From the NCBI RefSeq assembly GCF_016907715.1, contig NZ_JAFBCM010000001.1, positions 2,976,001 through 3,040,000 of the forward strand: a DNA stretch of 64,000 nucleotides, read 5' to 3'. The translations under genes and the position numbers were made by a program. Below the pieces are notes generated by a model that saw nothing but the letters and a program-made list of their open reading frames with translations, was not told the origin of the DNA and made no database searches. Shown one piece after another: positions 7,938 through 54,141 of this stretch (position 1 is its first letter; every line of letters starts with the position of its first letter). Origin of the DNA: Tenggerimyces flavus (GTDB lineage: Bacteria; Actinomycetota; Actinomycetes; Propionibacteriales; Actinopolymorphaceae).

Positions 7938-8071
7938 CGTCGAATCCACTCTTGCTCGGTGTCTTTGTTCTTTTGCTGCACTGACGTTGCCGCGAACCCG
8001 ACTGTGACACGAACCACCGACAGGTTTCTGTCCTGACTCCGCGCCGATCGGCCGCCGGCCCGACACGTTTG

Positions 8072-8090
8072 GATGAAGGTGCCCTTCATC
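8072..8090. repeat. Short palindrome, family A
   Basis: Nearly perfect palindrome GATGAAGGTGCCCTTCATC: 8-bp arms around a 3-nt centre. It has the same core as the other ATGAAGG-N3-CCTTCAT copies in the window. Confidence 0.75.
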
Positions 8091-8123
8091 TAATCGGCCG
8101 GCCGCGGGGTGCGCTCGACGCCT

Positions 8124-8199
8124 GTGATCATGAACGTGATCATGAAGCCGAACTGGTCGTATACGCCGGGTTTGCCTTCATGATCACGTTCATGATCAC
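8124..8199. repeat. Hairpin element, family B (24-bp perfect arms)
   Basis: Arms at 8124-8147 and 8176-8199 are exact inverted repeats built from two GTGATCATG units. The 28-nt spacer contains ACTGGTCGTATACG. A second copy with similar spacer lies at 16030-16105. Confidence 0.9.
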
Positions 8200-8224
8200 G
8201 GGCGGGTGGCGGAGGTTTGGGTGA

Positions 8225-8264
8225 GGGGCACCCTGGTCCCATAGGTTTGGACAGGGGTGCCCCC
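8225..8264. repeat. Hairpin element, family D (GGGGCACCC arms, CATAGGTTT spacer)
   Basis: Arms GGGGCACCCTGGTCC (8225-8239) and GGACAGGGGTGCCCC pair with two mismatches around the spacer CATAGGTTT. The related copy at 53994-54032 has the spacer GAACCTATG, the same core on the other strand. Confidence 0.75.
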
Positions 8265-8329
8265 GACCCAGCCGAGCTCTCGCCACACCAGCACTACCCG
8301 GCCACCTCGACAGCGGCCACCGCGCCGCT

Positions 8330-8354
8330 TTGAATGAGGGGCACCTTCATTCAA
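8330..8354. repeat. Short palindrome, family A
   Basis: TTGAATGAGGGGCACCTTCATTCAA-type palindrome: arms TTGAATGA and TCATTCAA with one mismatch near the centre. Confidence 0.75.
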
Positions 8355-8386
8355 TAGCCCGGCCCATCCACCGTGTCCCATCAAAC

Positions 8387-8436
8387 TGTGGGGTTCTGGT
8401 CGCGACACGCCGGCGTGTCGCGACCAGAACCCCACA
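8387..8436. repeat. 50-bp perfect palindrome
   Basis: Two 25-nt arms meet with no spacer: 8387-8411 is the exact reverse complement of 8412-8436, centred on ACGCC|GGCGT. No mismatch is present across the full 50 bp. Confidence 0.95.
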
Positions 8437-8475
8437 CTCTCGCGAAGGGCGGAGGGGTCCCCTCGCTCGAGGAGG

Positions 8476-8501
8476 TTCGAATGAAGGTGCCCTTCATTCA
8501 A
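8476..8501. repeat. Short palindrome, family A
   Basis: Copy with arms TTCGAATGAAGG and CCTTCATTCAA around a TGC centre. Confidence 0.75.
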
Positions 8502-8615
8502 CTTGCTCAGGTTCTTGGCGGAGCTCGCCGGCTGTTGGTGCTGTCTTGGTGCGGTGTTCCGGTGAGAGCTCTCCGGGGTTGGTGCTCTCGGGGTCTGTGG
8601 CGGCGGTCGAGTGTG

Positions 8616-8725
8616 GTGGCCGGTCCGGGGCGCGTCAAGGGCGCCTCCCAGGGGGCGCTTCGCGCGGGGTGAGAGCGTCGCTTCGCGACCGCGGAGCGGC
8701 CCTTGACTCGTCCCGGCCCGGCCAC
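8616..8725. repeat. 110-bp imperfect hairpin, family C
   Basis: The outer 27 nt on each side (starting GTGGCCGG and ending CCGGCCAC) pair with about four mismatches. The inner part contains GTCAAGGGC and GCCCTTGAC. The interior, read on the minus strand, matches the element at 22535-22638 (AGTCAAGGGCCGC, GCGGTCGCG, AGCGACGCT). No gene is visible. Confidence 0.75.
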
Positions 8726-8870
8726 CTGTCTTTCACGCGCCGCCCCTGCCCCCCGGAACAGGTGTCCCGGGGGGAGGTTCCTTCTTGCTGGGGTTTGCTG
8801 CCGTGCTCGCGTCGCCTGTTGGCCCCCTGCTTCTTGTGGTGTCGATGAAGCCGGGCCTTCCGACTGCCCG

Positions 8871-8929
8871 TTTTGAATGAAGGGCACCTTCATTCAATAG
8901 GTTCGAATGAAGGTGCCCTTCATTCAAAA
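8871..8929. repeat. 59-bp double palindrome, family A (paired form)
   Basis: Two family-A palindromes lie back to back: perfect 25-bp outer arms (8871-8895, 8905-8929) separated by AATAGGTTC. The same element, inverted (spacer GAACCTATT), occurs at 22346-22401 and at the IS481 insertion site. Confidence 0.9.
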
Positions 8930-8943
8930 CCAGTGCGCTGAGC

Positions 8944-9432
8944 TCAGTCGATCTCGGTCCCGTAGTCGGGGTCGATCTGCTCGGGATCGATGCCCAGCAG
9001 CTCGGCGACTTGTTCGACGACGACATCGTGGACGAGTGCGGACAATTCGGACGAGCCGACCGTGCGCAGCTCGATCGGGCGGCGGTAGATCACGATTCGG
9101 GCCGGTCTGTTCGGACCGGGCTCCACCAGGACGCCGAGCGGGATGTCCTCCTCGTCCGGCGCGGTCGTCGGGTCGGGAACGTCCTCGACCGCGAACTCGA
9201 CGCCGGACAGTTCCTTGGCGTACCTGCGTTCGAGCTCCTCGACCGCGTCCAGGACCAGGTCGTCGAAGCGCTGCGAACGGGTCCGCGCCACCGGTACCCC
9301 GTCCGGCGCGAGTGGGCCGCCGACGGCGAGCGGGCCGCGCATGCCGCGCCCGTGTCGGTCGCGGCGGGAACCAGGCCGTACGCCGGCGCCTGGGTCGGGG
9401 CCGGCGAGGGGATCTGGAAGCCCTCCGGACAT
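8944..9432 (-). CDS. Metallopeptidase-like protein (zincin-fold family)
   Basis: Product of 162 residues, similar to the actinobacterial metallopeptidase-family protein encoded divergently from DUF3499. A basic, Gly-rich N-terminus (SRRDRHGRGMRGPLA) is followed by the conserved domain from about residue 55. The helix that holds HExxH in true zincins reads HDVVVEQVAELLG (His135, Asp136, Glu140), so the canonical HExxH is absent and proteolysis is doubtful. The ATG at 9432 is supported by TAGGCT at 9439-9444, exactly 6 nt upstream, giving a leaderless mRNA. Function is unknown. Confidence 0.82.
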   Translation of the reverse strand: MSGGLPDPLAGPDPGAGVRPGSRRDRHGRGMRGPLAVGGPLAPDGVPVARTRSQRFDDLVLDAVEELERRYAKELSGVEFAVEDVPDPTTAPDEEDIPLGVLVEPGPNRPARIVIYRRPIELRTVGSSELSALVHDVVVEQVAELLGIDPEQIDPDYGTEID

Positions 9433-16029: not shown

Positions 16030-16105
16030 GTGATCATGTACGTGATCATGAAGGCGTACTAGTCGTATATGACCAGTCTGGCTTCACGATCACGTACATG
16101 ATCAC
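16030..16105. repeat. Hairpin element, family B (24-bp arms, one mismatch)
   Basis: Arms at 16030-16053 and 16082-16105, again made of GTGATCATG units, enclose a spacer with ACTAGTCGTATATG. It fills the gap between the convergent CDF and MerR-like genes and could act as a bidirectional terminator. Confidence 0.88.
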
Positions 16106-18014: not shown

Positions 18015-18055
18015 TGACGAGAGGGGCACCGCCGGTCGGGGTGCCCCTCTCGTCA
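18015..18055 (+). terminator. Terminator hairpin after ahcY
   Basis: A 16-bp perfect stem (TGACGAGAGGGGCACC, 18015-18030, with its complement at 18040-18055) and a 9-nt loop. There is no T-run, as is common in high-GC actinobacteria. It also ends the convergent hydrolase transcript. Confidence 0.85.
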
Positions 18056-19358: not shown

Positions 19359-19378
19359 TTTTGTATGAAGGGCACCTT
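19359..19378. repeat. Left half of family-A repeat split by IS481 (with 16-bp target duplication)
   Basis: TTTT followed by GTATGAAGGGCACCTT (19363-19378). The same 16 bp recur at 22075-22090 immediately after the element, then the rest of the double palindrome follows. This marks the insertion point of the IS481 element. Confidence 0.88.
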
Positions 19379-20504
19379 TGTCCTGGTTCAGGACATCGGA
19401 ATGGGGTGTCTCAGGTCATCGGTATAGCGTGTCGCGGGTCTTCGGAATGGCCGGCGGCGCACAGGCTGCGCCATGTCGACGCGTCGCCTTGTCATCACCG
19501 CTGTTCTGGCTGGTCAGTCCCAGTCGGAGGTCGCCCGCCTTTACAGGGTCTCCCAGGGCTGGATCAGCCGGCTCATGGGTCGCTACCGAGTCGAGGGCGA
19601 GGCCGCGTTCGAGCCGCGCTCGCGGGCTCCGAAGACGAGCCCTGGGGCGACCCCACCCCAGACCGTTGAGTTGGTCCTCGAGCTCCGCAAGAAGCTCACC
19701 GAGGCCGGTCTGGATGCTGGCGCCGACACCATCGGCCGACACCATCGGCTGGCACCTGCGGCACCATCACCAGGTCATGGTGTCGCGGGCGACGATCAAC
19801 CGGGTCCTGGGCCGGGCGGGCGCGGTCACACCAGAACCGTCCAAGCGCCCGAAGAGTTCCTACATCCGCTTCGAAGCCGAGCAGCCGAACGAGTGCTGGC
19901 AGTCCGACTTCACCCACTACCGGCTCACTCGCCCAGACGGCACCTCAGGCGCCGACACCGAGATCATCACCTGGCTCGACGACTGCTCCCGCTACGCCTT
20001 GTCGGTCACCGTGCACTGGCGGGTCACCGGCCCGATCGTGCTCGCCCGGTTCCGCGAAACCGTTGCAGCGCACGGGATTCCGGCATCCACGTTGACCGAC
20101 AACGGGATGGTGTTCACCACCCGGTTCTCCGGCGGCAAGGGCGGCCGCAACCACCTCGAACACGCGCTCCGAGAGCTGAACATCACCCAGAAGAACGGCA
20201 AACCGAACCACCCGCAGACCCAGGGCAAGGTCGAACGCTTCCAGCAGACGATGAAGAAGTGGCTACACGCCCAACCAGCCCAGCCCACCACCATCACCGA
20301 GCTGCAGACCCTCCTCGACGCCTTCGTGGCCGAATACAACCAGCGCCGGCCGCACCGCTCCCTGCCCCACCAGGCCACCCCCGCCACGATCTACACCACT
20401 CGACCCAAAGCCACCCCCAGCACCGACCGCAGCACCGACTGGCGTGCCTCCCACTTTCCGGACTGCGGACCGCATACGGTCCCGTCTGGAAAGGAGAATT
20501 GGTG

Positions 20505-20795
20505 GTGGCGAGAAGGAAGGGCACGTTCACGCCGGAGTTTCGCGAGGAGGCGGCTCGGCTGGTGGTCGAGAGCGGCCGCCGAATTGCCGATGTCGCGCGT
20601 GAAATCGGGGTCGGTGAGACCACTTTGGGCAATTGGGTGAAGGCCTACCGCGAAACGCACGTCGGCGAGGAGTCGCCGTTGGAGTTGTCTGAGCGGGCGC
20701 GACTACGGGAACTCGAGCGGAAAGTTCGCGAGCTGGAGATGGAGAACAACTTCCTAAAACGAGCGGCGGCATACTTCGCGAAGGAGCAACGGTGA
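20505..20795 (+). CDS. IS3-family transposase OrfA
   Basis: DNA-binding subunit of 96 residues. A helix-turn-helix (FTPEFREEAARLVVE, IADVAREIGVGETTLGNWV) is followed by a leucine-zipper-like helix (RLRELERKVRELEMENNFLK) and the usual ending AAAYFAKEQR. The GTG at 20505 lies 8 nt after AAGGAG; a GTG at 20502 is equally in frame. The frame is open far upstream only because it runs on into the interrupted IS481 gene. OrfB starts within its stop codon. Confidence 0.9.
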   Translation: MARRKGTFTPEFREEAARLVVESGRRIADVAREIGVGETTLGNWVKAYRETHVGEESPLELSERARLRELERKVRELEMENNFLKRAAAYFAKEQR

Positions 20796-21712
20796 CCAGC
20801 AGGTACGAGGTCGTCGATGAGTGTGCTGCCATGGTCGCCGACCACGATTCGGCTGATGCTCCACGAAATGTCCCTAGTGTTCGGAAGATGTGCGGCTGGC
20901 TTGGCGTGTCGACATCGGGGTTCTATGAATGGCGGTGTCGGCCGATGAGTGCGACCGTCCGACGGCGCGAGGATCTGAAGGTCAAGATTCGGGCGTTGTT
21001 CGACGAGTCCGACGGCACGTACGGATACCGGCGTATCCACGTCGAGCTGGTCGGCGCCGGCGAGCAGGTCGGTGAGGAGCTGGTCCGCGCCCTGATGCGT
21101 GAGCTGGGCTTGATGCCCTGCCAGCCGCGTCCGTACAGGGTTACCACGATCCCCGGCGATGTCGACCCGGCCGTCCCGGACTTGGTCCGCCGCGACTTCA
21201 CCGCCGCGGCACCGGGAACGAAGCTCGTGGGCGATATTACCTACATTCATACCTGGGAAGGGTGGCTCTATCTGGCGACTGTGATCGATTGTTTCAACAA
21301 AGAAGTCGTTGGTTATGCTATGGCCGACCACATGCGCGCTCAACTTGTCGCCGACGCGCTCGGCATGGCGGCGCGAAATCACGATCTCGCGGAAGATTGC
21401 ATTTTCCACTCTGACCGCGGAACGCAATACACCTCTGGTGAGTTCGCGGCCAGGATCGAGGATTTCGCGATGCGCGCCTCGATGGGACGGACCGGGACTT
21501 GTTACGATAACGCACTTGCCGAATCGTTCAATTCCACGCTGAAGGTCGAGCGTGTCTATCGCACCGCCTATCCAACACGCAAGAAAGCCCGTGACGACAT
21601 TGCGACCTACATCGAACTGTTCTACAATCGCCGAAGAATCCACTCAGGAATCGGCTACCGGACTCCCCAGCAAGTCCGCAACGAGTACCTGAATCAGCAG
21701 CTCGCAGCATAA
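20792..21712 (+). CDS. IS3-family transposase OrfB (DDE integrase)
   Basis: Catalytic subunit of 306 residues. An N-terminal HTH_21 region (DGTYGYRRIHVELVG) precedes the DDE core: Asp in VGDITYIHTWEG, Asp in FHSDRGTQYTS and Glu in CYDNALAESFNSTLK, with the ending YNRRRIHSGIGYRTP. All catalytic residues are present. The GTG start overlaps the orfA stop (GTGA), so OrfB may be made by coupling as well as by the frameshift fusion usual in IS3. Its codons are visibly richer in A and T at third positions than neighbouring genes, a sign of foreign origin. Confidence 0.93.
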   Translation: MTSRYEVVDECAAMVADHDSADAPRNVPSVRKMCGWLGVSTSGFYEWRCRPMSATVRRREDLKVKIRALFDESDGTYGYRRIHVELVGAGEQVGEELVRALMRELGLMPCQPRPYRVTTIPGDVDPAVPDLVRRDFTAAAPGTKLVGDITYIHTWEGWLYLATVIDCFNKEVVGYAMADHMRAQLVADALGMAARNHDLAEDCIFHSDRGTQYTSGEFAARIEDFAMRASMGRTGTCYDNALAESFNSTLKVERVYRTAYPTRKKARDDIATYIELFYNRRRIHSGIGYRTPQQVRNEYLNQQLAA

Positions 21713-22074
21713 ACGCCCGCAAACGAAGCGGTCCGGAAAGCGCGGGGCAGCCCAGACCGCAGCACCGACCGCCACAACCGCGTCCGCCGCGACAAGATCG
21801 ACAAAGCAGGCAGCGTCACCCTGCGCGTCGCCGGCCAGCTCCGTCACATCGGTATCGGCCGAACCTACGCCCGAACAGGCGTCATCCTGCTCGTCCAAGA
21901 CCTCCACGTCACCGTCATCAACGCCGCCACTGGAGAAATCCTCCGCGACCTCACCATCGACCCACGCCGCGACTACCAACCCACCAGACGACCACACAGA
22001 CCAGCACCGACAAAGAACTAGCCCAGACCTACACCCTGCAGGTCCGAGCCATTCCGATGTCCCGAGACATCACA

Positions 22075-22130
22075 GTATGAAGGGCACCTTCATTCGAACC
22101 TATTGAATGAAGGTGCCCTTCATTCAAAAC
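22075..22130. repeat. Right part of split family-A double palindrome, with target duplication
   Basis: It begins with GTATGAAGGGCACCTT, identical to 19363-19378, then CATTC, spacer GAACCTATT and the second arm ending CATTCAAAAC. Joining 19359-19378 to 22091-22130 rebuilds the element seen at 8871-8929, in inverse orientation, with one base difference. Confidence 0.88.
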
Positions 22131-22253: not shown

Positions 22254-22280
22254 TTTGGATGAAGGTGCCCTTCATCCAAA
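22254..22280. repeat. Short palindrome, family A
   Basis: Arms TTTGGATGAAGG and CCTTCATCCAAA, 12 bp each and perfect, around the centre TGC. Confidence 0.8.
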
Positions 22281-22345
22281 CTGCGGACAGCTCGGGTCGC
22301 CGGGGATGGCGACGAAGGGAGCGGAGCGCGGGAGGGTGGCGGAGG

Positions 22346-22401
22346 TTTGAATGAAGGGCACCTTCATACGAACCTATTGAATGAAGGTGCCCTTCATTCA
22401 A
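22346..22401. repeat. 56-bp double palindrome, family A (paired form)
   Basis: Two back-to-back palindromes with the spacer GAACCTATT, in the same orientation as the copy split by IS481. One arm carries a CATAC variant. Confidence 0.88.
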
Positions 22402-22534
22402 GCAGCGGAGAGCTCCCCCGGCAGTGGGGGCGCGGAAGGGGAGTGGGCCGCGAGCTGGTGGACGGGGAGGACAGGCGCGGGGGAGCTGGCGGGGAGTCGA
22501 TCAGGCGCCACGTCGATCTCGTCCATGCGCCTTT

Positions 22535-53903: not shown

Positions 53904-53993
53904 GGCCTGGTGACCGATCGGTGTCAGCTGGGTGGGCGTGGGTGGTGTCGAGGCGAGCTGTGGTGCTTGGTGTGGCGAGGTCTGGTGGGGTCG

Positions 53994-54032
53994 GGGGCAC
54001 CCTGGTCCGAACCTATGGGACCGGGGCGCCCC
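53994..54032. repeat. Hairpin element, family D (GAACCTATG spacer)
   Basis: Arms GGGGCACCCTGGTCC (53994-54008) and GGACCGGGGCGCCCC (54018-54032) around GAACCTATG. It is the same family as 8225-8264. Confidence 0.75.
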
Positions 54033-54141
54033 GGACCCAAACCACCAGGCGCGGTTCATGATTCCCAGGGGATGCACCGCCCTCGTCGTATGAGGGGCCC
54101 CTTTTCGAGCGACTCGCCGCCGGTCGTCCACAGGCTTGCGC

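Follow-up and report, generated by a model that had tools for sequence, protein, structure and literature searches.

Palindromic doublets in the window and the genome

The window analyzed here comprises 64,000 nucleotides of the Tenggerimyces flavus genome and corresponds to positions 2,976,001–3,040,000 of its single 8,519,422-bp (8.52-Mb) contig. A series of palindromic features on the forward strand leads up to the stop codon of a Zincin_1 gene at 8944–9342(−). The last of these features, at 8870–8930(+), is an AT-type doublet that forms a 26-bp hairpin with the loop AATAGGTTC; its end lies 13 bp from the stop codon of the facing gene. The segment 8868–8932 folds into a single hairpin of 26–28 pairs whichever strand is folded, with energies of −44.6 and −47.3 kcal/mol on the two strands (z −11.3 and −11.8). 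A copy of a conserved noncoding element of ~300 nt, with approximate limits of 8530–8868(+), runs into the doublet at its end and contains an imperfect 27-bp stem (arms at about 8615–8641 and 8700–8726). To the left lie a split AT doublet (8330–8502(+)), a GC-type doublet with the loop CATAGGTTT (8218–8270(+)), and a single palindrome of the GGATGAAGG subtype (8069–8093(+)). An 86-nt GATCATG-type hairpin at 8119–8204(+) belongs to a separate dispersed hairpin family of the genome, with arms such as GTGATCATGAACGTGATCATGAAG; another member lies at 16030–16105 and 39 were found in our samples.

A second cluster contains an AT doublet at 22075–22128(−), with the loop AATAGGTTC on the reverse strand, that has been struck by a mobile element occupying 19379–22074. 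Its rve/rve_3 ORF (19714–20640) suggests an IS481-type element, and the HTH_21 + rve ORF (20945–21712) of an insert nested within it, at about 20440–21746, suggests the IS3 type; both names are inferred from Pfam domains. A further GGATGAAGG-subtype single palindrome (22254–22281(+)) and a further AT doublet (22345–22403(−); loop AATAGGTTC on the reverse strand, one T·T mismatch next to the loop) follow. The second GC-type doublet of the window is found at 53987–54039(−), with the loop CATAGGTTC on the reverse strand. A hairpin at 18015–18055, TGACGAGAGGGGCACC..GGTGCCCCTCTCGTCA, stands between convergent genes and does not have the loop of the doublet family.

Allowing up to two mismatches, the motif ATGAAGGNNNCCTTCAT matches the window 11 times (8073, 8334, 8481, 8877 + 8907, 22077 + 22107, 22259, 22351 + 22381, and 19365 beyond the IS), whereas shuffled sequences lead one to expect 0.02 matches. 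The original prediction, that these palindromes recur both singly and back-to-back, is thereby borne out, as are its three doublets (8877 + 8907, 22351 + 22381, and the IS-split 22077 + 22107). The match at 19365 lies in a target duplication: the IS481-type element duplicated 16 bp of the doublet arm, now present on its far side at 19363–19378(+). Four copies had been described as single. All four positions are real, and those at 8073 and 22259 are indeed single; the palindromes at 8330 and 8476 belong together as opposite ends of a single doublet with a module of ~115 nt in its loop. In this split doublet, the left arm (8332–8352) is followed by AATAG, the ~115-nt module with a 50-bp palindrome (8387–8436(+)), GGTTC, and the right arm (8479–8499).

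Each doublet amounts to one long hairpin with a stem of 22–26 bp and a 9-nt loop, [A/C]ATAGGTTC. The T. flavus genome holds 143 exact matches to the palindrome core GAATGAAGGNNNCCTTCATTC and 80 to the loop-containing sequence CAATAGGTTCG, and a strict doublet pattern occurs 163 times (77 forward and 86 reverse); the reversed control gave 0 in each case. Lining up the 80 exact-loop doublets indicates a unit of ~57 nt with the majority form TTTGAATGAAGGGCACCTTCATTC AATAGGTTC GAATGAAGGTGCCCTTCATTCAAA. Unless stated otherwise, counts come from two samples. The first comprises the window and 74 stretches surrounding the exact CAATAGGTTCG sites (825,959 bases in total); the second, unbiased, takes 60 stretches of 20 kb at even spacing (1.2 Mb) and is also counted separately. 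Most AT sites derive from stretches picked for the exact loop. The two samples pooled contain 132 distinct doublet sites (105 AT and 27 GC). The sampled stretches have a G+C content of 68.9%, and 87.6% of the bases in the unbiased sample are coding according to our own hexamer-based gene caller, which was run independently of any annotation and is more reliable for stop codons.

A conserved loop between covarying stems

The heptamer ATAGGTT occurs 128 times in the 825,959 bases, and in 118 cases it forms a hairpin loop closed by at least 17 Watson–Crick pairs out of 22; the remaining 10 occurrences have at most 11 paired positions of 22. A second search, which relied on arm pairing and the core motif without assuming the loop and was restricted to 9-nt loops, returned 139 hairpins: 105 AT-type, 32 GC-type, and 2 others that resemble chance. 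ATAGGTT was present, on either strand, in the loop of 104 of the 105 AT-type hairpins, in agreement with the conserved doublet spacer that had been predicted. The loop of the GC-type hairpins reads CATAGGTT[C/T] in 23 cases, a near variant in 8, and an unrelated sequence in 1. Loop and core are common to AT-rich and GC-rich arms. Between the two majority forms, 1 of 9 loop positions differs, compared with 7 of 22 arm positions, the latter with compensation. The GC-rich family recognized in the original prediction (its family D), with other arms, a related spacer, and a modular relationship between the two, is therefore upheld.

Of 96 distinct copies, 95 were assessed for covariation; L149, one base out of register, was omitted. 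The long-hairpin fold pairs 91.4% of cells, and 15 of its 24 pairs have changed on both sides, a number reached by 5 of 500 shuffles; the arms thus co-vary. Both-side changes occupy 210 cells, whereas shuffles give 72.1 ± 10.1 and slid controls no more than 63; the covariation score is 0.272, compared with 0.148 ± 0.005 for shuffles and at most 0.133 for slid controls; our covariation control (a) is not to be read as a probability. Further pair types number 27, which is not above shuffles (30.0; 491 of 500 equally high), so that the paired changes are of few types spread over many related copies. Because the copies fall into two main families of related sequences, independent events must be far fewer than 210.

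Overall, a fold into two local hairpins performs about as well, with 91.3% of cells paired and a covariation score of 0.282; only the GC family discriminates between the two folds. There, the local pairs 36–52 and 37–51 are each unpaired in 25 sequences, and the local pairs 6–22 and 7–21 turn to G–U in 25, whereas the long-hairpin pairs 6–52, 10–48, and 21–37 are unpaired in none of the 95 copies. Some long-hairpin pairs are often broken (5–53 in 27, 8–50 in 13, 9–49 in 14, and the outermost 1–57 in 49 of 95). Across 2596 cells, departures from stem pairing comprise 32 G–T, 30 A–C, and 107 others. Since G–T and A–C departures are equal, neither strand appears to be favored as RNA, and we rejected RNA-level selection on the stems; equal departures are as expected for a palindrome at the DNA level or for use of both strands. 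Template switching within palindromes could keep the arms complementary, and gene conversion or palindrome-correcting template switching could account for the high identity of the AT arms.

A loop-blind hairpin search of both samples (at least 17 of 20 pairs, loops of 3–15 nt) returned 235 hairpins, 10 of them within called genes. These include 125 with ATAGGTT, 39 of the GATCATG type, 17 of the 50-bp palindrome type, 3 of other REP types, and 51 others. Among the last, we distinguish an E family, with arms GAATGAGGGCGTCCCTCTATC and the loop GAATAGATC or variants, and an F family, ACTTGTTGGACAGATCTCGG, at 7 sites. When loops are oriented, F loops carry ATAG at 4 and TAG at all 7 sites. TAG is nearly universal in the loops, with ATAG in 104 of 105 AT arms, in the majority of GC and E arms, and at 4 of the 7 F sites. 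The 50-bp palindrome has 17 copies, 11 of which lie in the ~115-nt module, between two arms of matching type and directly after the (A)TAG of the loop. The module is hosted by AT, GGA, GC, and E arms; the ATAG is one base short in the GC case, and one E case has the loop AAGAG. At L096 the right arm alone is kept. The five free-standing copies, TGGGGTTCTGG.., lie at about 498970 (L135), 2213787 and 2214979 (L147), 5331631 (L169), and 7451654 (L106) in genome coordinates.

Placement, insertion sequences, and a companion element

The doublets are nearly absent from genes. All 29 exact REP cores and all 22 doublets of the unbiased sample are intergenic, and in both samples together 130 of 132 sites lie outside called genes (inside: 0 of 105 AT, 2 of 27 GC). 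Together with the 163 strict doublets of the genome, this substantiates the proposal of a dispersed class of small intergenic palindromes. A facing stop codon lies within 55 nt of the loop centre in 54 of 105 AT doublets, compared with 10.2% of random intergenic positions (p ~5e-26), and in 6 of 10 AT doublets of the unbiased sample alone. For GC doublets the figure is 6 of 27 (p 0.05). Start codons within 100 nt are depleted (14 of 105 AT doublets vs 30.4% of random intergenic positions, p ~7e-5; 2 of 27 GC doublets). The AT doublets lie in 44 convergent, 29 and 24 co-directional, and 8 divergent contexts; in the unbiased sample, the 525 gaps of 60 nt or longer serve as background and comprise 75 convergent, 148 and 138 co-directional, and 164 divergent ones. 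Whether copies lie between convergent genes had been proposed as a check; 6 of the 22 doublets (AT and GC) of the unbiased sample are so placed.

A stable hairpin soon after a stop codon, a feature of intrinsic terminators, is found for about half of the doublets (54 of 105 AT, 6 of 27 GC; about −45 kcal/mol for the window copy), and 51 AT and 21 GC doublets have no facing stop within 55 nt. No U-tract follows the stem: 61 gene–doublet junctions average 0.64 T per 12 nt, with T runs of at most 2, and a terminator scan of two window regions marked no doublet. The missing U-tract leaves a classical intrinsic (Rho-independent) terminator unsupported, and no Rfam covariance model matched the window at gathering score. 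A known Rho-independent terminator family, the alternative named in the original prediction, is not supported. Assuming that the terminus lies opposite dnaA, the loop is oriented along the replication fork in 56 of 80 exact-loop doublets and in 66 of the 102 AT doublets of that sample. This bias (65%) is no greater than that of genes, 60% of which lie on the leading strand (462 of 769; p = 0.36 against 0.60), so we no longer take it as a hint that the doublets transpose as single strands.

AT doublets are targets of insertion sequences. All five copies seen of two unrelated elements lie within AT doublets. The end of the IS481-type element has two genomic matches at up to three mismatches, both in an AT doublet and at the identical point; the 16-bp duplications, AAGGTGCCCTTCATAC and AAGGTGCCCTTCATTC, each carry the allele of their own site, and the other copy (2,669,384) is without the nested IS3-type insert. 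The second element, 3,234 bp long with a DDE_Tnp_1_4 transposase and an IS110 inside, is presumably of the IS1380 type. Its three copies (L076:1749–4982, L103:1749–4982, and L105:5030–8263, the last 100% identical to each of the other two) are flanked by 5-bp duplications, ATGAA or TTCAT; the count refers to copies with IS110, as those without it would escape detection. IS110 itself has six copies, and the other three come after stop codons of DUF222-HNH genes.

The ~300-nt element, with a doublet at its right end, accompanies 44 of the 80 exact-loop doublets by a stricter motif and 48 by a looser stem motif; by the stricter motif, 36 are without it. The stem motif also lies upstream of 22 of 23 DUF222-HNH (13E12-type) genes of the T. 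flavus genome (L199–L221), which are 78–100% identical and have no internal stop. We take these genes to resemble REP13E12 repeats, as a multicopy DUF222-HNH gene is present in both; we know of no characterized role for such multicopy genes. Their upstream DNA is conserved over ~350–410 nt (only 188 nt at L219), and one ORF (L205) extends to 532 aa beside an IS3-type gene. No REP, loop, or GC/E motif was found in the 1.5-kb flanks of the 23 copies; two matches with one mismatch lie inside the ORF. In the unbiased sample, the rows of a loose scan show the element followed by a DUF222 ORF in 5 cases, an AT doublet in 4, and an E doublet in 1, the others being different or doubtful.

A relative of the same family, G001, has 23 DUF222-HNH matches of its own, 40–51% identical to the T. 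flavus copies (L227–L241); some are fragmentary or have stops, and the conserved upstream DNA differs from the T. flavus element. A 339-nt query with the element gave only weak, short matches in 292 other genomes of the order (best 8.5e-5), a weak negative since the search scored two candidates per genome and returned just 6 matches even in T. flavus. Folding of 65 of 70 copies (5 dropped for length) revealed a stem that hardly varies, with no clear signal for either strand. Five Rfam matches, in L122, L159, and L050, had E values of 0.077–2.7, all below gathering score. As a candidate 5′ leader RNA of DUF222, the element was rejected: a suggested promoter, TAGAAT, lies 6 nt before the ATG, so the element is probably not in the DUF222 mRNA.

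Relation to known repeats and origin of the family

REP and REPIN elements are best known alongside RAYT transposases. The Y1 transposase model PF01797 had no match in the T. flavus genome at E ≤ 0.1, while the control matched in 8 of 14 genomes. A RAYT-like transposase, which had been proposed as something to look for in a relative, is thus not seen in T. flavus itself; an IS200/RAYT mover was rejected on this basis for this genome, and the doublets have no known mover. Free-standing doublets show no convincing target duplication of the kind that marks MITEs: the best of many offsets gave a 2-nt flanking match in 13 of 56 cases vs 4.9 expected, uncorrected for the offset search. The strict doublet pattern, whose 163 copies extend well beyond the locus, was absent from 393 further genomes sampled evenly across the class; from the genome_contigs collection, which may lack the source and very near genomes; and from viral_contigs. 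Doublets did not match plasmids or phages, and none of 7 family relatives has the AT palindrome. A probe for orthologous empty sites with one protein matched family relatives at only 38–40% identity, too distant for such a site to be recognized. Among the genomes searched, the pattern is confined to T. flavus, which makes this a lineage-specific family as far as the collections show. No open-access paper among the matches listed concerns the doublet family, judged by title and abstract opening.

REPINs, as described from Pseudomonas and Escherichia (Bertels and Rainey 2011, PMC3116915), share several features with the doublets: two inverted REP units that form one hairpin, an extragenic location and high copy number, the coexistence of doublets and singles, compensatory changes, and several groups per genome. 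The one-hairpin folding of inverted units and the high-copy, extragenic distribution are found in T. flavus. However, the ends of REPINs are conserved and the spacer less so in that description, whereas the T. flavus loop is short and conserved and the arms vary by type; a RAYT (Y1_Tnp) gene, moreover, was not found. Small palindromic repeats also make up the GTAG/CGTC REP superfamilies (Di Nocera et al. 2013, PMC3733652); these often occur as inverted dimers, which can fold unit by unit or into a single large hairpin, and CGTC families also exist without an associated transposase. Their unit stems measure 5–13 bp, unlike the single 22–26-bp stem of T. flavus, and the words "actinobacteria" and "Streptomyces" do not occur in that text. 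Neither tag is seen by eye in the majority consensus of 95 copies, TTTGAATGAAGGGCACCTTCATTCAATAGGTTCGnATGAAGG.... With neither a RAYT gene nor GTAG/CGTC tags, we do not file the doublets as REPINs despite the shared structural features. Tobes and Pareja (2006, PMC1525189), writing on REPs that serve as targets of ISs, also describe ISs every copy of which lies within a repeat; they name IS3, IS110, IS4, IS256, and IS5, and neither IS481 nor IS1380 occurs in that text. The name REP13E12 appears in PMC10589994. Compared with REP13E12 repeats, the T. flavus genes differ in their conserved ~300-nt upstream element, which also occurs without an ORF and ending in a doublet.

We consider it rather probable that the doublets form a dispersed hairpin family that resembles REPINs, is specific to this lineage, and has been spread by some enzyme other than a visible RAYT. 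It is conceivable, but on balance unlikely, that they are primarily functional: bidirectional transcription-end hairpins serving convergent genes and multiplied through duplication and gene conversion, not by a transposase. The excess of AT doublets between convergent genes (44 of 105 vs 75 of 525 gaps) and just behind facing stops, the stability of the window copy (z about −11), and the depletion near start codons all fit this reading. It is weakened by the lack of a U-tract and of terminator calls, by G–T departures that do not exceed A–C, by the convergent placement of just 6 of 22 unbiased-sample doublets, and by the copy number, since 163 strict doublets per 8.5-Mb genome are too few for a general terminator; nor would such a function require one shared loop. 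That the palindromes are double-stranded sites bound by a dimeric chromosomal or regulatory protein seems very improbable. Near-perfect, strand-symmetric, intergenic dyads oriented with the fork in 66 of 102 cases might suggest such sites, yet a dyad site predicts the opposite of a conserved loop (1 of 9 positions differing) between varying, compensated arms (7 of 22), positions near start codons are depleted, and the fork bias is no greater than that of genes.

Two readings involve the DUF222-HNH genes. In one, the nuclease moves the ~300-nt element, and the doublet forms the terminal part of a non-autonomous DUF222-HNH derivative, taking the place of the ORF and spreading with the element. 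The stem motif shared by 22 of 23 near-identical genes and 48 of 80 exact-loop doublets (44 by the stricter motif), and the intact reading frames of all 23 copies, would accord with this. We nevertheless regard it as improbable, because the 1.5-kb flanks of all 23 genes are free of doublets and REP motifs, the element is missing by the stricter motif from 36 of 80 exact-loop doublets, and G001, with as many DUF222-HNH matches, has different conserved upstream DNA. The near universality of TAG invites a broader speculation, which we hold to be doubtful: a new loop-addressed element might tolerate any stem sequence with TAG in the loop, and a non-RAYT enzyme, possibly the DUF222-HNH nuclease, might nick the extruded loop; in this way the arms would be copied, the ~115-nt module would enter after ATAG, and the adjacent ~300-nt element would be carried along.

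For the REPIN-like family that we favor, the doublet unit would have been copied around the genome as DNA, a step suggested by the number and near-identity of its copies, by its modular build, and by its restriction to a single lineage. The enzyme, which would not be an IS200/RAYT Y1 transposase visible to the Pfam model in this genome, may recognize the hairpin and perhaps its ATAG loop: the conserved loop and compensated stems point to recognition of the folded form, and the ~115-nt module is also lodged after ATAG. Copies would persist chiefly in noncoding DNA, frequently next to gene 3′ ends, where their presence does no harm or is of use. Read from either side, a hairpin of about −45 kcal/mol may pause or block transcription with the aid of Rho or another factor, or shield the 3′ ends of mRNAs. 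This role, which we infer from position, is the weakest step of the model since the U-tract is absent.

The family connects an ORF-less repeat with multicopy DUF222-HNH genes, and its AT doublets add IS481- and presumed IS1380-type elements to those found in REP-like repeats, beyond the families named in PMC1525189. A large and clean hairpin family with no visible RAYT, a conserved loop, and covarying stems makes it directly testable what is recognized and by what.
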